From a virus: a DNA stretch of 38,276 bases. Below, one piece after another: positions 8,689-32,169 of the stretch. The translations under genes and the position numbers were made by a program. Below the pieces are notes generated by a model. The model was given only the letters and a program-made list of their open reading frames with translations. It was not told the origin of the DNA and did no database searches. The stretch covers positions 1-38,276 of the IMG/VR virus record IMGVR_UViG_3300042887_002362. One strand, given 5' to 3'. How positions within the stretch are numbered: position 1 is the first letter of the stretch; each line of letters opens with the position of its first letter.

Positions 8689-9999
8689 TTATATAAATTT
8701 AAAAAATGTCCAACTTTTTGTTATTGGATCTATAATAAATCTACCAACTTTTATTGATTTGATATATATATCATCTTTGCTGTTATTAACATTGAATATT
8801 TTAGTTGTTTGTACTTGACCACTTGGTTGTTTTTGAATAACTAAAACAATACCAGAGCCTCCTCTTGCACCATCCCCTTGATCTCTTGCTGCTCCTCCAC
8901 CACCACCCCCTGTATTATTTAAACCATTGGCTGCTAAATAAGCAGAAATACCATTCGCATAAGAGCTATGTCCTCCGTTTCCACCTCCACCAAGTCCTCC
9001 GGTAGTAATTCCTTTGTAATCGTTTCCTCCTCCACCACCACCTCCATAATATTTATTGTTTAAATTAAAAAAATATCCATTTCCTCCATTTTGAGCCGAT
9101 CCAATAGTAGAATATTGTCCTATTCCTCCGTTGCCTGTTGAATTTCCAGTTACCGCAACCCCTCCATATAAATCACCACCAACACTAGAATGTCCACCAT
9201 TTCCACCCACTATAGAATGTAAACCAAATGTAGTAGTTTCCCCATTATTACCATAAGAATAAGGATATCCACCATTTCCCCCCTTTCCTATTTTTATATT
9301 AATTTTTTGATATGGTGTAACCGTTAAATTTTGTAAATATAAAATACCTCCACCTGATCCACCACCACCACCTGATCTTTGTCCGTGTCCACCACCACCA
9401 CCTCCTGCGCCTACTATTAATACATCTATGTTTGTTACCTCGGATGGGACAATATATTCTCCATCAGTTAAAAACTCAACAATTACAGGATTTATTTCAG
9501 ATGCTATTTGAGATGATGTTTTTTCTATAATATATTTTTTTCCTATGTTGCTATACAAGAAAAAATTAATATTTGATACCGTTCCGAGTAAAAAATTAGT
9601 TTCTGGATAGAATTTCTTTAATCTATTAATTCCCCAATTTTGAAATACTTCTTCTGAGGTATTTTCATCCAAATAAAATTTAGTAGTGGAATCTTCGTAT
9701 ATGTTTATAGGGAATGTGAAATTCAATTCTGTAGTATTCCAAAATGAACTCATATATTTTGTTGCCGTTGATGCTTGATTTAATTTTGTTGGAAATTCAA
9801 AATAATCTGCAAAAGCATTGAATTTGTTTATGTTTGCACATAAATCTTTAAAGGTGCTAAAAATGTTATCAGGAACACTAAAAAATCTAGATGATAAGTC
9901 ACATATATTTTGATCCAAAGACAAATAGTTATAATTGTGTTTTCCTAATGAATCTCCAACACAATCACTTTCGTTGATTTTTTTTATAATTTTACTCAT
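8689..9999 (-). CDS. Structural protein: shared N-terminal module plus glycine-rich domain (436 aa)
   Basis: Residues 1-165 are related to the two upstream genes: an initial SDCVGDSLGKHNYNYLSLDQ segment (consensus G-D-x-L-x3-N-x-N-Y-x2-L), a middle region and NWGINRLKKFYPETNFLLGT. Residues 170-400 form a glycine-rich domain starting VIVEFLTDGEYIVPSEV, then IDVLIVGAGGGGGGHGQRSG, repeated GGNGG motifs, ending GGSGIVLVIQ. That is the typical layout of the Gly-rich surface domain seen in many bacterial and phage proteins (IxVPxGVTxVDVLVVGGGGGGG...GGSGIVIV). A short C-terminal tail follows. It is probably a virion-exposed protein; the N-terminus would attach to the particle. The ATG overlaps the upstream stop by 4 nt. 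Confidence 0.7.
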   Translation of the reverse strand: MSKIIKKINESDCVGDSLGKHNYNYLSLDQNICDLSSRFFSVPDNIFSTFKDLCANINKFNAFADYFEFPTKLNQASTATKYMSSFWNTTELNFTFPINIYEDSTTKFYLDENTSEEVFQNWGINRLKKFYPETNFLLGTVSNINFFLYSNIGKKYIIEKTSSQIASEINPVIVEFLTDGEYIVPSEVTNIDVLIVGAGGGGGGHGQRSGGGGGSGGGILYLQNLTVTPYQKINIKIGKGGNGGYPYSYGNNGETTTFGLHSIVGGNGGHSSVGGDLYGGVAVTGNSTGNGGIGQYSTIGSAQNGGNGYFFNLNNKYYGGGGGGGNDYKGITTGGLGGGGNGGHSSYANGISAYLAANGLNNTGGGGGGAARDQGDGARGGSGIVLVIQKQPSGQVQTTKIFNVNNSKDDIYIKSIKVGRFIIDPITKSWTFFKFI

Positions 10000-12466: not shown

Positions 12467-13711
12467 ATGGCAATAAAAATAGAAAATTTTGATAACTTTG
12501 AGGTTGCAGGAAAAACCTATGTTGGAAATTTTCCATTGTATTCATCTGATATAGTGTGTTCTATTCCTTCTGCTGTAGATGAAGAAGAAAATAATTTATT
12601 TTTAACCAGCGAGGGGGATTTTGTTAATTTTTATACTCCAACTCCTACAGTAACACCAACGAATACGCCAACGATTACACCAACTCCAGAATGGACAGGT
12701 TTTTTACCTCTTGCTTCTACTGTTTGTGTTGGTGTATCTTTCACACAAACAAATACAGATTTGAATGGTAATTTTCCAGATATAACACAAACTGCTATCG
12801 GAACAAAACAACCAACATGGACAGCATATTCTCCTGATGCATCTACTATACCATTAGGTGAGTCTTTTCAACAAACACGAACAAATGATTGTGGTGAAAC
12901 CGATACTATTACATCCATTGGTACAAAACAGCCAGAGTTTTTTGAATATTCTATAATAATATCAGCTAATGTTAATAACTACAATAATATATTACCTACG
13001 TTAACAAATAATGGTTGGAATGGTACAAAAAAAGTAAAGCTAACATTAACAGTAAATTCTGGTGTAACTGTTGGATCTACTGTCGCAACAACTGCCGCAT
13101 TAACAATACCAGCGATGCCTACTAATAGTTTGGTTTTTTTAATAAACAATGGTAATATTTATGGTGCTGGTGGTACTGCTGGTCTTGGAGGCGTTGGGGT
13201 AGCAGGTGGTGATGGTGGTAATGGTGGAACTGCATTGTCTATATCAACCCCAACAACAATATCAAATTATGGAAACATAAAAGGTGGTGGTGGCGGTGGT
13301 GGTGGCGGTGCTGGTTATTCTCAAACATATTTTCATTGTATGTGTGCTAATGCACCAATTGTATGTGGATATGGTTGTCAACCTCCTGGTTGTGTTTGTG
13401 GAAATCATAATAATGATCCAGCCTGTGCTTTCTGTGGACAGCAAACTTGGCCAACCAGAACTTATACAGGCGGAAATGGCGGAATCGGACAAGGATCGGC
13501 AAATGCTGCCGGTGTTGGTTTAAATGAAACTAGTGGTAAACTAGGTGGTGCCGGAGGTTCATTTGGAAATACCGGTTCAAATGGATCAGCTTATAATGCA
13601 ATACTTGGTGGCACAGGTGGATTGGCTGGATATTATATTAAACTATCAACAGGCGGAACATATGTTTTTGCCACAGGCTTAACAGGTAATGTTGCCGGTA
13701 GAATTGGTTAA
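12467..13711 (+). CDS. Mosaic glycine-rich adhesin with 41-aa-type repeats and Cys-rich insert
   Basis: Domains in order: an N-terminal region (1-54); a Thr/Pro linker (about 55-75, TPTPTVTPTNTPTITPTPE); two diverged copies of the repeat found at 1-1446 (about 75-165, including PLASTVCVGVSFTQTNTD and SPDASTIPLGESFQQTRT); and a domain shared with the two adhesins at 27145-30041 (ANVNNYNNILPT...NNGWNGTKKVKL...FLINNGNIYGAGGTAG). Then follow a nine-glycine run (about 273-281), a Cys-rich insert with eight Cys (about 285-330), and GGNGGIGQG with further GG turns. INNGxIxGAGG followed by poly-Gly is typical of phage receptor-recognition adhesins of the T-even Gp38 kind, packed as polyglycine helices. 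The role is inferred as host binding at a fibre tip. Confidence 0.75.
   Translation: MAIKIENFDNFEVAGKTYVGNFPLYSSDIVCSIPSAVDEEENNLFLTSEGDFVNFYTPTPTVTPTNTPTITPTPEWTGFLPLASTVCVGVSFTQTNTDLNGNFPDITQTAIGTKQPTWTAYSPDASTIPLGESFQQTRTNDCGETDTITSIGTKQPEFFEYSIIISANVNNYNNILPTLTNNGWNGTKKVKLTLTVNSGVTVGSTVATTAALTIPAMPTNSLVFLINNGNIYGAGGTAGLGGVGVAGGDGGNGGTALSISTPTTISNYGNIKGGGGGGGGGAGYSQTYFHCMCANAPIVCGYGCQPPGCVCGNHNNDPACAFCGQQTWPTRTYTGGNGGIGQGSANAAGVGLNETSGKLGGAGGSFGNTGSNGSAYNAILGGTGGLAGYYIKLSTGGTYVFATGLTGNVAGRIG
13283..13309 (+). repeat. GGN trinucleotide tract (poly-glycine)
   Basis: A run of GGT/GGC codons encoding nine consecutive glycines forms a GC-rich island in AT-rich DNA. Similar tracts lie near 28674-28706 and 29608-29645 on the other strand. 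Slippage in units of three would change the glycine number without frameshift. Confidence 0.75.
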
Positions 13712-13798: not shown

Positions 13799-16700
13799 AT
13801 GTCCGATAAACAAAATCCATATAGTTATAAAATTTGGTTCTCTTTACAAGAGAATAATTTAACAGAAGATCCACAAACTTTATACATGGAGTATTTAAAA
13901 GATTGGTATTTTGCTAATAATAAACAATTAATAAATCCTAAACAAAAAATTAAAGAAGAATATATTCAGTTGATAAAAGATCTGAGTTTTCTTTTTAATA
14001 AAGATGATAAAGATAGATTTTTACAATCAATAGATTATAACAATAAAGAAGAATTAATTTATAATATTCCATTATTTGCAAAAAAATTAAAAGAGATAGC
14101 CAGAGTTTTAAATGCAAAAAGAACATCTATTAAAAATTCTAAATTAAAATATAATTTGATAGGTTCTAATGATGGTATAGAAACTTTATTTTACGAGTAT
14201 CTTTTGAGATCTTTTACTAAAAGTGATAATGCAATCACTCAATTACCTACATCTAATTTAAAATATGAATTTCCGTCTTTATCCGCAGTAAAAGATGATT
14301 TTTTTATAGAAATAGAAGAATTATATGATACTAATGTATATCATGATTCTGATCCAGGTGTTGATATAAACCAATATGTAAGCGTAGAAGATATATTAAA
14401 CGAATATCCGTTTGAAGATCTAAGTGATGAACAAATGGTGGGAATATTAAATTCCAGGTTCATTCCTAGATCAACTAATAATTTTTTAAGTAAAGTTTAT
14501 CAAGCATATATAACATCGTTAACAGGTGATGTAACAACAGATGCAGAAAAAACAAAACTTTTTAATTACGAGGTAAATGCATCAGAAAAATATATGGGAG
14601 AAACCGTGTATGGTTTAACTGCAATCAGATTGATAGACACCGGAAGACCTGATTATGTATTACAAACAGATTTTTCAACCGGTAATAATTGGTTTGTATG
14701 GCCCAGTGGTAGTAGAGTTATAAATGATACTAATAGTGATAACTATTTAGATACAATTTTATTAAATGATTCTAATTTAGTAGGTTCTGGTGCTACTGGT
14801 GGAAACTCATATAAAAATTCCGATTTAATTTTTACAGATAAAAATGGTTATGTTGAGGGTGCGTGGTTAAAAGGTCCTAGAACATATACGGTTAGCACTT
14901 CCACGAGTGTAAACATTTTACCTAATGCTGTTAGAGAGTTTATATACCCATATGTTGGGTATAATTTATCAACAAAAGGATTAAATTGGATCGGTTTTAG
15001 TTTAACCGATCATGACTATAAAAATTATGATTTACTAAGCAATGAGCAAAAACTTAATTTAATGATGAAATACTATACGGAAAACCTTCCGTTGAGTACC
15101 TCTAATTCATTTTATTTAAATCAGTCCACTTTAGTCGAATTGGGAGCAGAGTCAGGAGACAATGTATTAACAGGTGATACAATTTTAAAAAGACCTCATA
15201 GAAATGTTATAACACAACTTTCAAATGAAAGTAACGATGGCACAACAGAAGCGGCATTTTTGTATAAATTTCAAAAAACCGATATACCAATATCATTAGG
15301 ATTGAATAATATATATTGGCCAATTAAATCTTTTGATTCATCTGAAAATATACCAATAACAATAAAAAAAGATAATTGCCTTCCTTCCCATTTAATAAAT
15401 TTTAAAATATCTGAGGTGATGAATGGTGCTATAGCAGGATTAACATTCAATACATCAGACGTTATATATAAATTAAATAGTAGATTTTCCGATCCAATAG
15501 AAGCAGCATGGTTAGGGTCTGGATCTATTCAAAATTTGGACGTACTTACCGATGCTATACAAATATATGATAGCGATGCAACAAATTGTGCAAAATACAT
15601 AGATGGTCCAACACAAGCAGCATTAAATTTAAAAATCTCACCATCTGAAGCAGTTTCTTTCATTTGGTGTGATATAGATACAAAAGCAGATGATGTATTT
15701 AAAAACTTTGAACATGCACCAAATTGTGAATATGGTAAAAAAAATCACGACTATTACTCAGATCAAAATTATTTAAATCCCGAACAGTTAAATCAAACAA
15801 ATTATTGGAAAACTTGTACATGCAAAGCATTACATTATTCACCGATTGGAAATATCGGGGATTTACCAACCGATTATCATTCCATAGCAGATTATCTTTT
15901 TGCTGATCCACAGGGAGTGATGGAAAAATTTACATTAAAAACATGGAAAGATACTAGAGGATTTGATGCTTATTCAAGTCCTCAATTTGCTCATTATAAA
16001 ATAGATGGAAAATCCGATACTCCGATTGGTTGGGGAGACGGTTTCTGGAAAACCGGAAATGGTAAACCGTTTATATTAAAAACTGGTAGAAGATATACCT
16101 ATATAAGATCTTCATTAAGAAAAGATGATACATCTAGTTTAGAAGGTAATGACATATCACCGTTTTATGTTGTAAAATACAGTTATAAAAAATTAAGAGG
16201 TTATTGTAAACAAGATGAAACAGCTATCAATAATTGTTACGATTTATACATATTATTAGATACTAGTAAATCTCAAATACTGTCAATAGAGGATACCAAA
16301 GAGTTAGTTTCGAATATTTCTAAAACTATATTAAATAATTCCGAAAACAAAAATATTCAAATTGGTGTTATAGCTTTTAATGATGCTCCAACCATGTTGT
16401 CATATTTGACAAATTCATCTGGTGCATTGGAATTTTATGTTAGAAACGTTGTAGTAAATGAAAACTTTCCAGATTATAGAACCGATATATATGAGGCGTT
16501 TGTAACAGCCGATCATTTTTTATACCAAGAATATCCCGAAAATGCAAGCTCGGAATTTAATTATACAGATTTATGTAGAAATATTAATACTTTAATAATA
16601 GACAGAAATTTAAAATCTAAAACCTTAAATTTGCCACAACAAAATTGTAAAAAGAAAATATTGATAGTTAGTGATGGAGAAGAAAATGAAAATATAACAG

Positions 16701-18304
16701 AAGTTTTAACATATGCTAATAATTTAAAGAAAAACAAAAATATAGAAATTTATGGGGTTGATATAGGTATAAGGTCAAATAACAACACATTAATAGAAGA
16801 CATAGTGAGTGATTCTTCCAAATATTTTAATTTAGAAGGATATTTAAAAGAAGGAAACGGAGATGTTATAACTTTTGCTCAAATAATAGCATCACAAATA
16901 AATGGATGTGCATCGGTTGTTCCAAGTTGGAAAAAGGCAATTAAAAACGAAAACGGTATATGGGAAGGTGTGAACGAGAAATCTGATATGATATTAAGAC
17001 CAGGTGATTTCTTAATATATGTACATTCTTCTCAAATAGATTATATCGGAGAAGATATAAATTCTAATTTTTCACAAAATGGTGTTTCATTTACAATAAA
17101 TGCAAAACTTAATGGTTGGGATTATGATTTAAGAAAATTCGATCCGGAATTTATTGGTGATATATATGGCGCAAAACCATTTTGGGGAATGTCTGATACT
17201 ATACCATCAACCGAAAAAAACTTTAATAAAGAAACAAATCATTTTTCTGGTCAAATCAGATTTTATAATGATTATGTTCCGGTAAGACAACCAGAATTGT
17301 CTAATATGACAATAGATAATGGAAATTTCATACAGTACTTCAGAAGAGTAAACACATCTTTTGATTGGATTCAACCTATAACATTAACAACTACATTATC
17401 TAATTACGAATGGTGCAAAATAATATTTGATAGGTATACATCAAACTTAAGTGAAATATTAAAAAATGGAACTTTTGATTTTTATGGACAAAGTAGCGAT
17501 GAACCAAGTGATATGTTATTAGAAAGTTATTCCGATTTTAAAATATCTAGATATAACTATTTTGCAAGAACAGATTTTACATATACTCAAGATCTTTATA
17601 ATACAAATAGATGCGAAAATACATTTGTAGTATTTAATACCGGTTCAGTTTTAACGCCATCAGAACCATATGTAAATTTGTTAAATGTTCATTATCCGAC
17701 TATTGCAACTGTTTCTATTCCAAAATATTTAGTACCCGAAAAATATTTTGGTGGTTATTTGAATCCTCTTAATTTGGGTGTTTCATATTATAGAGGTAAA
17801 GGTTATGATATACAAATAAATAAAGATCAACTCACTGTTTATGATCAAACAAGTGCAGAAAGAACTTTCTTTGATATAGCAAAATATTCCAATAGAAATA
17901 GAGGACTTACTAAAAAAGATCAGGTGTCACCGACTACCATAAAGGATATAGATAATAGGTGGATGGTGGAGTCTTTCAATTCTGGAAACAGAATGGGAAT
18001 GAATATTAACACATTGGAAAATCAAAAGTTCACCCCATATCAAAGTTATTTTGAAATTCTTGGTAAGAACAACAATGGAGTAACCAGACAAAACGATTCT
18101 ATTGAATTTTGGAGTGATACACTGCCTGCTATATGGAACGACGAAAAAAATTATCCATTAACTTTCAGAAAAGAATTAATGGCTCAAACGTATGAACTAA
18201 GAAAATCTGGACTTTTAGTAGATAAGGGAATTATATCGAATTGGAGAACTGACATATTTGGTTATGAATATGGTTTATATAAACCAGAAAATGTTGTTTG
18301 TTAA
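13799..18304 (+). CDS. Giant virion structural protein with VWA domain (1501 aa)
   Basis: The N-terminus (1-140) is helical and charged, with YIQLIKDLSFLFNKDDKDRF and IPLFAKKLKEIARVLN followed by KYNLIGSNDGIETLFYEYLL, a pattern I associate with large structural proteins of T4-like marine phages. A beta-rich central part follows. A von Willebrand factor A domain spans about 815-1036 with a complete metal-ion-dependent adhesion site: D821-T-S-K-S825, Thr895 (RTDIYEAF) and Asp959 (IVSDGEEN). VWA domains bind ligands through a divalent metal, so the domain could mediate adhesion or virion assembly. The C-terminus (1040-1501) is another beta-rich region ending VDKGIISNWRTDIFGYEYGL. It ends overlapping the convergent gene by 4 nt. 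Exact position in the virion is unknown. Confidence 0.75.
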   Translation: MSDKQNPYSYKIWFSLQENNLTEDPQTLYMEYLKDWYFANNKQLINPKQKIKEEYIQLIKDLSFLFNKDDKDRFLQSIDYNNKEELIYNIPLFAKKLKEIARVLNAKRTSIKNSKLKYNLIGSNDGIETLFYEYLLRSFTKSDNAITQLPTSNLKYEFPSLSAVKDDFFIEIEELYDTNVYHDSDPGVDINQYVSVEDILNEYPFEDLSDEQMVGILNSRFIPRSTNNFLSKVYQAYITSLTGDVTTDAEKTKLFNYEVNASEKYMGETVYGLTAIRLIDTGRPDYVLQTDFSTGNNWFVWPSGSRVINDTNSDNYLDTILLNDSNLVGSGATGGNSYKNSDLIFTDKNGYVEGAWLKGPRTYTVSTSTSVNILPNAVREFIYPYVGYNLSTKGLNWIGFSLTDHDYKNYDLLSNEQKLNLMMKYYTENLPLSTSNSFYLNQSTLVELGAESGDNVLTGDTILKRPHRNVITQLSNESNDGTTEAAFLYKFQKTDIPISLGLNNIYWPIKSFDSSENIPITIKKDNCLPSHLINFKISEVMNGAIAGLTFNTSDVIYKLNSRFSDPIEAAWLGSGSIQNLDVLTDAIQIYDSDATNCAKYIDGPTQAALNLKISPSEAVSFIWCDIDTKADDVFKNFEHAPNCEYGKKNHDYYSDQNYLNPEQLNQTNYWKTCTCKALHYSPIGNIGDLPTDYHSIADYLFADPQGVMEKFTLKTWKDTRGFDAYSSPQFAHYKIDGKSDTPIGWGDGFWKTGNGKPFILKTGRRYTYIRSSLRKDDTSSLEGNDISPFYVVKYSYKKLRGYCKQDETAINNCYDLYILLDTSKSQILSIEDTKELVSNISKTILNNSENKNIQIGVIAFNDAPTMLSYLTNSSGALEFYVRNVVVNENFPDYRTDIYEAFVTADHFLYQEYPENASSEFNYTDLCRNINTLIIDRNLKSKTLNLPQQNCKKKILIVSDGEENENITEVLTYANNLKKNKNIEIYGVDIGIRSNNNTLIEDIVSDSSKYFNLEGYLKEGNGDVITFAQIIASQINGCASVVPSWKKAIKNENGIWEGVNEKSDMILRPGDFLIYVHSSQIDYIGEDINSNFSQNGVSFTINAKLNGWDYDLRKFDPEFIGDIYGAKPFWGMSDTIPSTEKNFNKETNHFSGQIRFYNDYVPVRQPELSNMTIDNGNFIQYFRRVNTSFDWIQPITLTTTLSNYEWCKIIFDRYTSNLSEILKNGTFDFYGQSSDEPSDMLLESYSDFKISRYNYFARTDFTYTQDLYNTNRCENTFVVFNTGSVLTPSEPYVNLLNVHYPTIATVSIPKYLVPEKYFGGYLNPLNLGVSYYRGKGYDIQINKDQLTVYDQTSAERTFFDIAKYSNRNRGLTKKDQVSPTTIKDIDNRWMVESFNSGNRMGMNINTLENQKFTPYQSYFEILGKNNNGVTRQNDSIEFWSDTLPAIWNDEKNYPLTFRKELMAQTYELRKSGLLVDKGIISNWRTDIFGYEYGLYKPENVVC

Positions 18305-27144: not shown

Positions 27145-29118
27145 TTATGTTAATGTTCTTGTTGTAATTGTTGTATATCCACAATAACTATACGTGTTAC
27201 CACTTTGACCGCAGAAACATCCACCATAGCATGGGTCACCATTAAATCCAGGTGGACAACCATCGATAGGATCATTATCAGTACACGTACATGTAACAAT
27301 CCCGTTACAAACTGTTGAAATATTTGTAACGATATTAACCGATAGTGTCGTAGAACAAGTTGCACCATTAATTGTAAGTGTCATGGTTTTAGTTCCTGCT
27401 GTAGATGTAGTAACATTTAATGTCAGTAGACCATATCCTTTATATAAAGCAAAATTTCCGGTTAAGCTTGCGCCATTTATATCTCCAGTAGTAACTCCTG
27501 TTATAGTATATGGTATATTTCCATCTTCTAATAAAGAAGTATCTAACTTGAACTCTACTGTTGATGCATTTATGTTTTTATTTAATATATATAAGTTTGG
27601 ATACACTCTCCAATTTTTATTCTTTGCCGTAATCCAATTACAAGAACATGTTCCCGTATTATCATTAACATAAATGCTCCATTCACTTGTTATAGATGGA
27701 GATTTGGTTGGCAATTGGTTAAATATGTCATTTATATTGGTTGCTGACATATTGTTATTTTTTATTGATATTACTCTGGTTTCATCATTTGGTGTATATA
27801 TATTAGATAATCCACTTAAATTTCCGCTTAAATTATTATTATCCACATATAATTTTTGAAATGAAACACAAGAAGTTAAATTTAAAGTTGATAAATTATT
27901 ATCATTAAAATTAATTGTTTTTAATTTTATACATTGTGATAAATTTAATGTTGTAATATTTTGTGTATTACAAGTTAAAGTTTCTAACAATAAACAATTT
28001 GTTAAATTTATTTGTCCTCCCAAATTTGTAGGAGAATTGACAACGATTGATGTTAACGATTGTCTTGGCTCAATTTGAAGATTATTACCATCAATTAATA
28101 ATGTTACACCAGCACCATTTGTTGGATTAGTTGTGATAGAAGGAGCAGAACTCCAGCCACTCCATAATACAGGTTGTGTTTGTGCTCCTGTACTAGAACA
28201 ACTATATCCTCTTTCATCGTTGCTACTTTGCAAACTTAAAAACTCTGAACCATCAATCCAACATCCACCTTCTCCCCCATTACCAAATGACGTAGTGGAA
28301 CCAGAAAGTCCATTTTGTCCATCTTGCCCCCAATCACCACCGTTGCCACCATCACCTGTAAATATACCTGCTTCGTATAATATACCATCTAATCCCAATC
28401 CAAAATTTTTATTATAACCTTGACCTCTTCCGCCGTTTGCCCCTGTATATGTTATACAGTTACGACTTTTAGTATTACATGTGCCAACTGTAGACGCATT
28501 ACAACTAGATGCATTAGTATAATATTGGCAATATGAACCACAATTACTTCCAACTGTACAGTCATTTGGAGTAGAACAGTAATTCACTCCTTGGCAATTA
28601 AGTATACAACATTTATTACAGTATTGGGCACCTCCGCAATTAGTAGATGATATTGATACCCAAGTTTTATACGCCCCTCCTCCCCCTCCGCCTCCCCCGC
28701 CTCCTCCATATATATTTCCAGTATTGGATATAATGATATTTCTTTTGGTATATATGGCAGTGCCGCCCTTTCCTCCGTTACTACCCGCTATGCTACCACC
28801 ACCTGACCCAATAGTTCCACTTGCCCCATATATATTCCCCTTGTTTATAATAATAACCTGATCATATGGTCTAAATGTAGTTGAACTATCAGCAGGAATT
28901 GTGATAGCTGGCGTTAATGGGTTTTCTGAATATATATTCACGCCCGAATTAATTGTGATTATACCTCTAAGTTTTTTTCCACCATTTCTATTCCATCCAT
29001 AATTAGTGGTTGCTAAATTATTTATACGTGTCCATAAATTTAAATTTTGTTGGTCTGTAGTTATCGTATCAACTACATTTAACCAACTACCATAATAACC
29101 TAATCCTAGTGATGCCAC
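27145..29118 (-). CDS. Glycine-rich adhesin with leucine-rich repeats and EGF-like tail (657 aa)
   Basis: The start is GTG at 29118, overlapping the upstream TAG by 1 nt. The N-terminus MASLGLGYYGSWLNVV matches the next adhesin. VIIINKGNIYGASGTIGSGG leads to a poly-glycine run (about 139-152), then a Cys-rich insert with 12 Cys (about 160-225) and TYTGANGGRGQG with more GG turns. From about 350 the protein differs from its paralogs: leucine-rich repeats of the type LTxCxxLxTLxxxxNNLSTLNL (for example LKTINFNDNNLSTLNLTSCV) to about 470, an Ig-like region, and a C-terminal Cys cluster (NGIVTCTCTDNDPIDGCPPG, then CYGGCFCGQ) resembling EGF-like modules. Probably a host-receptor-binding adhesin. 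Bacterial-type LRRs on a phage adhesin are unusual. Confidence 0.75.
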   Translation of the reverse strand: MASLGLGYYGSWLNVVDTITTDQQNLNLWTRINNLATTNYGWNRNGGKKLRGIITINSGVNIYSENPLTPAITIPADSSTTFRPYDQVIIINKGNIYGASGTIGSGGGSIAGSNGGKGGTAIYTKRNIIISNTGNIYGGGGGGGGGGGAYKTWVSISSTNCGGAQYCNKCCILNCQGVNYCSTPNDCTVGSNCGSYCQYYTNASSCNASTVGTCNTKSRNCITYTGANGGRGQGYNKNFGLGLDGILYEAGIFTGDGGNGGDWGQDGQNGLSGSTTSFGNGGEGGCWIDGSEFLSLQSSNDERGYSCSSTGAQTQPVLWSGWSSAPSITTNPTNGAGVTLLIDGNNLQIEPRQSLTSIVVNSPTNLGGQINLTNCLLLETLTCNTQNITTLNLSQCIKLKTINFNDNNLSTLNLTSCVSFQKLYVDNNNLSGNLSGLSNIYTPNDETRVISIKNNNMSATNINDIFNQLPTKSPSITSEWSIYVNDNTGTCSCNWITAKNKNWRVYPNLYILNKNINASTVEFKLDTSLLEDGNIPYTITGVTTGDINGASLTGNFALYKGYGLLTLNVTTSTAGTKTMTLTINGATCSTTLSVNIVTNISTVCNGIVTCTCTDNDPIDGCPPGFNGDPCYGGCFCGQSGNTYSYCGYTTITTRTLT

Positions 29119-30041
29119 TAACTCTGTCCTCCTAATACATTAGTTTGATTTAGTAATGTAATTAATGATATTCCTTCTACCCAATTTCCACCGTTTCCTT
29201 TAGTGCCACCACTTCTTATTGGACTAGAATTTCCATCAACACCATTTTGGCCCCATGTTCCTCCGTTACCTCCCGTTCCTCCGTTACCAACTCCAGCAAA
29301 CCCATTTTGTTGAGGTATACCGTATCCTTGTCCAACACCACCATATCCACCGGTTGCAGATGTCCATGTTTTTGTACTACAATAATATGTTTGTCCATCA
29401 GATAGTGTTTTCCCATTACCATCTCCATCACAGCATTCCGGACAATTAAAACAATCGCTACAATATTGGCTACATCCACTATTAGTGGAACTACAGTAAT
29501 AATTTCTTGTATCATTCCATTGAGGTAATAATTTACTAACCGGACAATCATCACAATTACTAGCACTACAACAACTCTTAACTTGTGCTCCTATCGTGTA
29601 AGTTTCTTGTCCACCGCCTCCACCGCCTCCGCCTCCGCCTCCACCATATATATTTCCATTATTATTTAAATATATATTTTTTAATACTTTTAATGCGGTT
29701 CCTCCATTTCCTCCATTTCCTCCGTTTGTTGGGGTTTGATCGCCTTCTCCTCCAATTCCAGCGGTTCCACTAGCACCTAAAATATATCCATTATTTATAA
29801 TAAATATTTGATCATATGATCTAAAAAGATTTTGTGGTACTAATAATGCAGGAATTGATGCACTTGTTGAATATATGCTGTTACCTGTTGGTATTGTTAT
29901 AAATGCTTTTAACTTTTTACTTGTATTAGACCATCCACTATTCGAGGTAATAAAATTGTATAAATTTACATTAGCTTGTGTTGTTAAATTAAGTACAACA
30001 TTATACCAGCTTCCATAAAAACCTAGACCTAGTGATGCCAT
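29118..30041 (-). CDS. Glycine-rich adhesin with Cys-rich insert (307 aa)
   Basis: Starts MASLGLGFYGSWYNVV, paralogous to the following gene. Residues 15-110 (LTTQANVNLYNFITSNSGWS ... YDQIFIINNGYILGASGTAG) are the conserved adhesin fold, then NNNGNIYGGGGGGGGGGGGQ (about 126-145). A Cys-rich insert with 12 Cys (about 152-222; KSCCSASNCDDC; CSQYCSDCFNCPECC) follows, then TGGYGGVGQGYG and repeated GGNGGTWGQNG turns. The fold is that of Gp38-like receptor-recognition proteins whose tips pack as polyglycine helices. It lies 4 nt after the tail-fibre-like gene, the usual order for fibre then adhesin in T-even phages. It probably sits at the fibre tip and sets host range. Confidence 0.75.
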   Translation of the reverse strand: MASLGLGFYGSWYNVVLNLTTQANVNLYNFITSNSGWSNTSKKLKAFITIPTGNSIYSTSASIPALLVPQNLFRSYDQIFIINNGYILGASGTAGIGGEGDQTPTNGGNGGNGGTALKVLKNIYLNNNGNIYGGGGGGGGGGGGQETYTIGAQVKSCCSASNCDDCPVSKLLPQWNDTRNYYCSSTNSGCSQYCSDCFNCPECCDGDGNGKTLSDGQTYYCSTKTWTSATGGYGGVGQGYGIPQQNGFAGVGNGGTGGNGGTWGQNGVDGNSSPIRSGGTKGNGGNWVEGISLITLLNQTNVLGGQS

Positions 30042-30045
30042 ATCA

Positions 30046-32169
30046 TTATGATAACAAATCTCCTACGAGATACCATGTACTACCTGTCCAGTATGCGCTT
30101 GCAGCTGAATTTTGAAATCCTAATTTTTTGAAATCATTAGTTGGTGTTGATGATAAACCAGGTGACCCGGTTCCTTGTGCAAATTGCACTATACCTGCTC
30201 CTACTCTTATTACAGATACTTGTGTACCTGCCTTTAATCCAGATGGTAAATTTATGTTTATAGTATTTGTTGCATGGTTTGCCAAAATTGTTTTATCGTG
30301 ATCTGATTGTGTTACACTATAATTAGTTGTTGTTGTTATCGGTGCGTTTGGATCTTTTGTTATGGTTCCATTTATAGTAAAATTACCTGTTGTGGATAAT
30401 GCACCAAAAATCGTAACAGTATTTGAATCTGCTCTTAACTTTTCAATGTTGTTTGAGAATAATGATACTATACCATTAGCGGCCCCACCCGCTCCTATTA
30501 TTGGACTAAATACACCAGTATCACCATCTGGTCCAAACGCATAACCATTTATGGAACTATCAACATTCGAAGGAACTCCCTGATAAGATCTAAATCCAGT
30601 AGCGGAAACTCTCCCATTTACTGTTAATTTTTCGGTTGGATTGGTTGAACCAATACCAACATTACCAGATGGATTTATTCGCATCGCTTCTTGTTCGGTT
30701 GATACTAAAAATTGTATATCCGCATTGGCATGATTTGTTGCTAGTTTTAAATCTAAGTTATCATGATTCCAACTTAAATAAGAACCATAAGCATTTGTTG
30801 GTCCTCCCATTACAACACCCGCATAATTTGAATTTGGCGATAATAATGATATATAACAATTAGCACTATTTTCAAATATTCCAACACTATTAGCCTGTGG
30901 TGTTACAGCACCAGCTGATCCATTTTTGACATGTAATAAACCTTCTGGTAAATTTTCACCGATTCCAACCTTTCCGTCATTTTTTATTACAAATGGTGTA
31001 GTGTCTGTATTATTAACATCTTCTACTACTAATACATCGCCTGTTCCATTAGTTTTTTGCGTAATTCTTACTGTTGGATTTGCATTTTCTGATTCAAAAA
31101 CATGATTACCTATTGCATTAACATTTCCTATGAAGTTGTGATTACTTCCATTTGCTGAAATATTTCCAACTATTGTTAATTTTTCATTAGGATTCATTGT
31201 TCCTATGCCTACGAATCCATTATCATTAAAAACTATATCGTCACCATTTGCATCTATGAAATGAGCAATTGGCTGTGCGCCAGATTGTGTAACCTTTAAT
31301 GCTGGACCAGTTCCCACATTATATATTTCTACAGCAGAAGTAATTTCAACTTCTGTGTTTAAATATGTCGTTGTTCCATCTACTGTTAGATTACCAGAAA
31401 TTTTTGCATCTCCGCAAACATTTAAATTTTTTGCAATACCAACACCACCATCTACAACCAATGCACCAGTAGTACAAGAGGTGCTTTGATCTGTATTATT
31501 TAAAAGCAAATTACCACATATGTTTACATCTTTTGCAATACCAACACCACCATCTACAACCAATGCACCAGTAGTACAAGAGGTGCTTTCTTCTGTTCCA
31601 TTTATATTAACTGTGCTAGTGGAAGCAGTACTACCAATCTCTATATTTGTTGCTGCTCCACCAAAATTAATAGTAGTAGTAGTAGTTGTATTAAGTAAAT
31701 TGAAATTGGCAGTAGATGCTGTTAAATCTCCTCCTTCTATGTCCACATCTCCAACTACATTTAAATTTCCATCCAAGTTAGTATCGCCCCCTACATCTAA
31801 AACATATCCAGTTGTTATGGTATTTTTATTAATACCAACTTTTCCGTGTAATAAATTTCTACCATATGCAGTAGATAGAGGTATATTTAAACTAAACGAT
31901 TCTATACCAACACTGGTGGTAGGATTTAAACCTCTGACGAATAAACCTCTATTTCCAGCTATTGCACACAAAGCAGTATTATTAGAATAAAAATATCCAG
32001 CAAATGCACTTGCTGGAGCAACTGCACATAATGATCCTTGTAATGAAAAATCACCTAAAAATGGCTGTTCTGGACTAGCAATCGGATCATGAGAAGCTTC
32101 TGGATTTGTTGCATTTCCATATGTATGATGGTTTTTTCTGTGGTATTTTGCGTGGAATCTATTACTCAT
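30046..32169 (-). CDS. Tail-fibre-like protein (707 aa)
   Basis: The N-terminus (MSNRFHAKYHRKNHHTYGNA ... EASHDPIASPEQPFLGDFSL) is His-rich and resembles the start of virion proteins in marine T4-like phages; it probably attaches to the particle. The body has fibre-shaft motifs: repeated NLDGNLNVVGDVDIEGG-type turns, two near-identical copies of ESTSCTTGALVVDGGVGIAK, and repeated VGIGTxNPxEKLTVxG segments (about 315, 400, 505) typical of trimeric beta-helical fibres. The C-terminus (IVQFAQGTGSPGLS ... AYWTGSTWYLVGDLL) is a small domain common at the ends of phage and bacterial fibre proteins. No chaperone peptidase domain is seen. The adhesin gene starts 4 nt downstream. A TATAAATA box lies 25 nt upstream. 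Confidence 0.8.
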   Translation of the reverse strand: MSNRFHAKYHRKNHHTYGNATNPEASHDPIASPEQPFLGDFSLQGSLCAVAPASAFAGYFYSNNTALCAIAGNRGLFVRGLNPTTSVGIESFSLNIPLSTAYGRNLLHGKVGINKNTITTGYVLDVGGDTNLDGNLNVVGDVDIEGGDLTASTANFNLLNTTTTTTINFGGAATNIEIGSTASTSTVNINGTEESTSCTTGALVVDGGVGIAKDVNICGNLLLNNTDQSTSCTTGALVVDGGVGIAKNLNVCGDAKISGNLTVDGTTTYLNTEVEITSAVEIYNVGTGPALKVTQSGAQPIAHFIDANGDDIVFNDNGFVGIGTMNPNEKLTIVGNISANGSNHNFIGNVNAIGNHVFESENANPTVRITQKTNGTGDVLVVEDVNNTDTTPFVIKNDGKVGIGENLPEGLLHVKNGSAGAVTPQANSVGIFENSANCYISLLSPNSNYAGVVMGGPTNAYGSYLSWNHDNLDLKLATNHANADIQFLVSTEQEAMRINPSGNVGIGSTNPTEKLTVNGRVSATGFRSYQGVPSNVDSSINGYAFGPDGDTGVFSPIIGAGGAANGIVSLFSNNIEKLRADSNTVTIFGALSTTGNFTINGTITKDPNAPITTTTNYSVTQSDHDKTILANHATNTININLPSGLKAGTQVSVIRVGAGIVQFAQGTGSPGLSSTPTNDFKKLGFQNSAASAYWTGSTWYLVGDLLS
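31429..31589 (-). repeat. Direct repeat inside the fibre gene (two 59-bp copies)
   Basis: 31429-31487 and 31531-31589 are identical and offset by 102 bp (34 codons). They encode the two STSCTTGALVVDGGVGIAK copies. The offset keeps frame, so recombination could add or remove one shaft unit. Confidence 0.9.

Follow-up and report, generated by a model that had tools for sequence, protein, structure and literature searches.

Three glycine-rich proteins (A, B and C) encoded in the window, a virus fragment of 38 kb (IMG/VR IMGVR_UViG_3300042887_002362, analysed over its full 38,276 nucleotides), are Gp38-type adhesins by fold, and C and B also by gene arrangement. Adhesins of this type are already known; the Cys-rich cassette that we find at the loop-B position is a real and, as far as our searches reach, undescribed variant, and our search of open-licence papers turned up none in which a Cys-rich insert is linked to Gp38 or to a tail fibre adhesin. 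We propose that A, B and C are probably tail-tip adhesins of a T4-like phage, in which loop-B has been enlarged to an exchangeable, disulfide-held and host-binding Cys-rich mini-domain. The genes and parts concerned are the following.

12467..13711 (+): adhesin A (414 aa), with a Gp38-type domain from about 12947 preceded by an N-terminal region of Thr/Pro and repeats
13316..13468 (+): Cys-rich cassette of adhesin A, 8 Cys
13799..18304 (+): VWA-domain protein of 1501 aa, encoded downstream of A
27145..29118 (-): adhesin B (657 aa), made up of a Gp38-type domain, an LRR-like stretch and a C-terminal Cys module
27148..27315 (-): C-terminal Cys module of adhesin B, 8 Cys
28444..28671 (-): Cys-rich cassette of adhesin B, residues 150-225, 12 Cys
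29118..30041 (-): adhesin C (307 aa), on a Gp38-type scaffold; its gene comes directly after that of the tail fibre
29352..29609 (-): Cys-rich cassette of adhesin C, residues 145-230, 12 Cys, at the loop-B position
29610..29645 (-): poly-Gly run of adhesin C, residues 133-144, which corresponds to polyglycine helix 3 in hhalign alignments with gp38 of S16 and PP01
30046..32169 (-): 707-aa tail fibre protein, encoded upstream of C and B, an order kept in relatives

The Gp38-type scaffold suspected in the sequence-only reading was borne out by fold matches in the PDB and by profile alignment. Foldseek searches with AlphaFold models of C and A (built from 19 and 12 alignment rows, respectively) matched PDB 9V85 (E = 1.2e-8 and 7.4e-8) and PDB 6F45 (E = 3.5e-5 and 8.5e-6), and PP01 gp38 and S16 gp38 were the only significant matches in the PDB. 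Against viral models, the matches included several proteins named Gp38 as well as proteins of the phages P-SSM2 and MED4-213. The scaffold was modelled with confidence in both proteins. The cassette was modelled with low confidence (loop pLDDT about 35; below 50 at residues 147-228 of C and 135-162 of the A domain), and disulfide pairing read from these models was discarded as unusable. Models were made for C and A, and B is placed as Gp38-type through its sequence similarity to C (about 45-46% identity over the domain; 41% between C and A). Glycine-rich motifs with variable segments between them are present in all three. Scores against the Pfam family GP38 (PF05268) fell just under the cut-off of 25 bits for A (23.7) and C (23.3) and exceeded it in two relatives (L010, 38.0; L110, 26.5), while B had no match to this family. 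A sequence search of the PDB gave chance-like matches alone, mostly to poly-Gly.

Like Gp38 of the T-even phages (S16, PP01, T2; PF05268; PDB 6F45, 9V85), the proteins combine a beta-helix with a polyglycine-II sandwich, have a distal loop after a long run of Gly, and carry variable loops on a constant Gly framework. They differ from T-even Gp38 in the attachment region: C and B have a shorter one that cannot be recognised, and that of A is different. The profile alignment begins at residue 48 of C and residue 73 of PP01, no three-helix bundle was predicted before the beta-helix in the C model, and the N-terminal helical attachment domain of T-even Gp38 with its three conserved Trp was found neither in the C model nor in the PP01 alignment. 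B differs further by its additional LRR-like and Cys-rich C-terminal modules.

The genes of C and B lie directly after the tail fibre gene, as does gp38 after the distal tail fibre gene in T-even phages, and the order tail fibre, C, B is found in the window and in relatives. The stop of C and the start codon of B overlap by one base. C is absent from L013 and L060 (a contig of 3300032226), where B directly follows the tail fibre gene, and is thus optional. Adhesin A is sited apart on the opposite strand and does not follow the tail fibre gene; its arrangement with the VWA-domain protein, for which no PHROG match was obtained, recurs in the relative L048. Longer contigs of the relatives encode the T4 major capsid family Gp23. 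Another Gly-rich protein of a different kind (18% Gly; 8689-9999, -) matches the tail fibre assembly family phrog_863.

The three open reading frames, their coordinates and the Cys counts of their cassettes (8 in A, 12 in B and 12 in C) were confirmed as first read from the sequence, and so was the conserved order of poly-Gly, aromatic/Thr segment, Cys segment and TGxxGGxGQG. In each protein the cassette (51, 76 and 86 aa in A, B and C) is flanked N-terminally by the longest Gly run and C-terminally by the Gly block that follows. Cys makes up 1.2% of the window's other proteins, whose richest 76-aa stretch has 7 Cys. With binomial probabilities, for a given stretch, of 1.6e-7 (A), 1.5e-10 (B) and 5.9e-10 (C), the Cys density of the cassettes is therefore not due to chance.

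To place the cassette, we aligned C with Gp38 of known structure by hhalign, and the start of its Gly run (residues 133-140) registered on residues 151-158 of S16 and PP01, which in S16 fall in polyglycine helix 3 (PMC6851490). The cassette consequently occupies the position of loop-B, which in PP01 comprises Q161-V170 at the distal tip (PMC12892980). In T-even Gp38 this loop has 8-10 residues and no Cys cluster, whereas here it has 51-91 residues with 8-12 Cys. Replacing residues 158-170 of PP01 by those of T2 abolished infection via its receptor OmpC; the main receptor contact of PP01 is loop-E, with loop-B in a supporting role and possibly touching LPS sugar (PMC12892980). The cassette thus takes the place of a known adsorption loop and, by analogy, is likely to contact a receptor.

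Relatives of C and B were found in ten IMG/VR contigs. A single-protein scan with C retrieved none, alignments being needed, and a search of genome contigs yielded no relative. Independent sequences are fewer than contigs: the proteins do not differ among L006, L007 and L008, nor between L011 and L012, and the first adhesin is common to L110 and L111. The sequence-only reading had described a Cys-rich element that varies on a constant scaffold. For C this holds: identity between the adhesins of L006 and L009 drops from 99% ahead of the cassette to 50% inside it and rises again to 97% behind it (P = 1.4e-22), a clean swap that rests on one metagenome contig, L009. Both the extra variability of the insert and the retention of its Cys are thus seen for C, the reverse of the two outcomes named beforehand as refuting. 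Nucleotide identity between L006 and L009 falls from residues 133-156 and returns at about 222-234, with sharp boundaries, and the cassette difference includes indels. Synonymous difference within the cassette is 0.42 versus about 0.1, and nonsynonymous difference is raised too, as would be expected if the block had been replaced from another lineage and had not drifted in place. Features of the L009 cassette recur elsewhere, an AYGG-W insertion in L110 and a CNPPCCDP motif in both L010 and L110. Further, L110 and L111 carry two paralogues side by side whose N-terminal parts are 65% identical and whose cassettes are 36% identical.

For B, the claim of variability was not supported: its cassette is no more variable among relatives than the post-loop segment, and for B we therefore reject the idea that all cassettes are hypervariable. 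The same is seen between C of the window and of L006, whose cassettes are no more variable than the post-loop region. It is the C-terminal module of B that is swapped among relatives, with an 8-Cys module in the window, a 10-Cys module in L011 and a different domain in L004, L005 and L013. In L010-L012, C-type and A-type adhesin domains are fused in one 707-aa open reading frame (L010:6001-8121; L011:6001-8121; L012:5496-7616), each with its own Cys cassette and with a linker domain between them.

Among five distinct C-type cassettes, the ungapped Cys columns are invariant (10 of 10, compared with 10 of 63 other columns), with P = 3e-7 serving as a guide only because the sequences are related. 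In the alignment, extra Cys were gained in twos and at different sites in the window/L006 type, in L010 and in L110. The A-type cassette of L048 has 8 Cys, as in A of the window, and the second domain of L010 has 12. The even Cys numbers emphasised in the initial reading hold for A, B and C but not throughout: the second adhesin loop of L111 has 11, P-SSM2 has 9 and AG-345-F15 has 7, the latter two each with one further conserved Cys shortly C-terminal to the loop. Like knottins and other disulfide-rich mini-proteins, the cassettes combine a framework of Cys with intervening residues that vary freely; searched alone, they matched no Pfam family.

This pattern suggests disulfides more than metal, and a knottin-like, disulfide-bonded fold would be compatible with it. 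That the cassettes are instead zinc- or iron-binding mini-domains on the same scaffold we consider unlikely. Metals have structural roles in the fibre tips of other phages (T4 gp37), and the C-type cassettes contain CxxC spacings (CDDC, CSDC, CFNC, CPEC); however, the B cassette has a single CxxC, vicinal CC pairs fit disulfides better, several unrelated Cys frameworks occur on one scaffold, Cys were gained in twos, and no zinc-binding Pfam family was matched. Unlikely, too, is that the cassette stabilises or caps the polyglycine sandwich while specificity lies in other loops or in the LRR-like and C-terminal modules of B. The conservation of the B cassette among relatives beside an exchanged C-terminal part would suit such a role, as would the finding that PP01 specificity resides mainly in loop-E (PMC12892980), but in C it is the cassette that is replaced and not the remainder of the protein, and the sandwiches of S16 and PP01 exist and fold without an insert.

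The cassette swap itself could have other origins. An assembly artefact is suggested by the fact that the swapped C cassette is on one contig, L009; yet its reading frame is undisturbed, all 10 core Cys are retained, its flanks carry differences of their own, its cassette is close to that of no other contig, and paralogues inside single contigs (L110/L111, the window) carry different cassettes on related scaffolds, so that we regard an artefact as very improbable. A module that varies while the rest of a presumed receptor-binding protein stays constant also brings to mind a diversity-generating retroelement, which we rejected and to which we give almost no credence: no reverse transcriptase (PF00078) was matched in ten records, one of them 114 kb long, and the L006-L009 difference includes indels and synonymous change across the whole block.

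In the reading that we favour, an exchangeable host-binding mini-domain at loop-B, each of A, B and C would be a tail-tip adhesin of a T4-like phage and have the Gp38 fold, in which polyglycine-II helices project from a beta-helix and form a flat sandwich. Loop-B, after the third and longest polyglycine helix, would have grown to a Cys-rich mini-domain of 51-91 residues at the fibre tip, most likely held by disulfides formed outside the cell, and this mini-domain would bind a host surface structure. Recombination in the conserved flanking Gly-rich DNA may exchange the mini-domain while the scaffold stays constant, and such exchange would alter host specificity. Support for exchange comes from one clean pair (L006/L009) and from the paralogues. 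More tentatively, and at somewhat less than even probability, we envisage a widespread system of mini-protein display in environmental T4-like phages, in which one polyglycine scaffold would present interchangeable disulfide-rich mini-domains with several unrelated Cys frameworks at one loop position, and cassette exchange through flanking Gly-rich DNA would change host specificity. Known Gp38 adhesins vary by short loops, and a folded, Cys-stabilised domain at one of these would give the same scaffold a far larger binding surface; if cassettes are indeed exchanged between conserved Gly-rich flanks, this would be a simple genetic route to new specificity.

The Cys-rich loop element is not confined to the phage of the window. 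The cultured Prochlorococcus phage P-SSM2 encodes a protein of the same architecture, PSSM2_035 (L121:36318-39761), annotated as hypothetical, as does the marine relative AG-345-F15; both phages belong to the cyanophage genus Salacisavirus. Like the adhesins of the window, PSSM2_035 (and its counterparts in P-SSM5 and AG-345-F15) carries a Cys-rich insert behind the Gly run of a Gp38-like polyglycine domain, and PSSM2_035 lies downstream of tail fibre-like genes. Its insert diverges faster than the part before it, with identities between P-SSM2 and AG-345-F15 of 58% before, 37% within and 46% after the insert. Unlike them, PSSM2_035 is a multi-domain protein of 1147 aa with another Cys framework. 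With this architecture present in a cultured phage, in a gene annotated as hypothetical, PSSM2_035 becomes a candidate for the receptor-binding protein of a Prochlorococcus phage, and the idea can be tested with an isolate.

CPMG_00082 of cyanophage MED4-213, taken as BFVD M4QDG1 from its length, likewise shows a Gp38-like fold match and an enlarged loop at the same place, but this loop contains two Cys only. L052, S16 and PP01 are without the cassette. A tblastn search of cultured phages with the A, C, L085 and L110 proteins returned nothing, probably owing to masking of the Gly core by the filter, and fold search took its place. A Gp38-like protein of another phage (L085:10094-10957) has 8 Cys at the cassette position and 5 more in the preceding loop. 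Within the window, a 506-aa open frame (1-1518, -) is built of repeats of about 40 residues in tandem, each containing two Cys (WSAWTPDASTVC...C), and similar repeats are also present in the N-terminal part of adhesin A.
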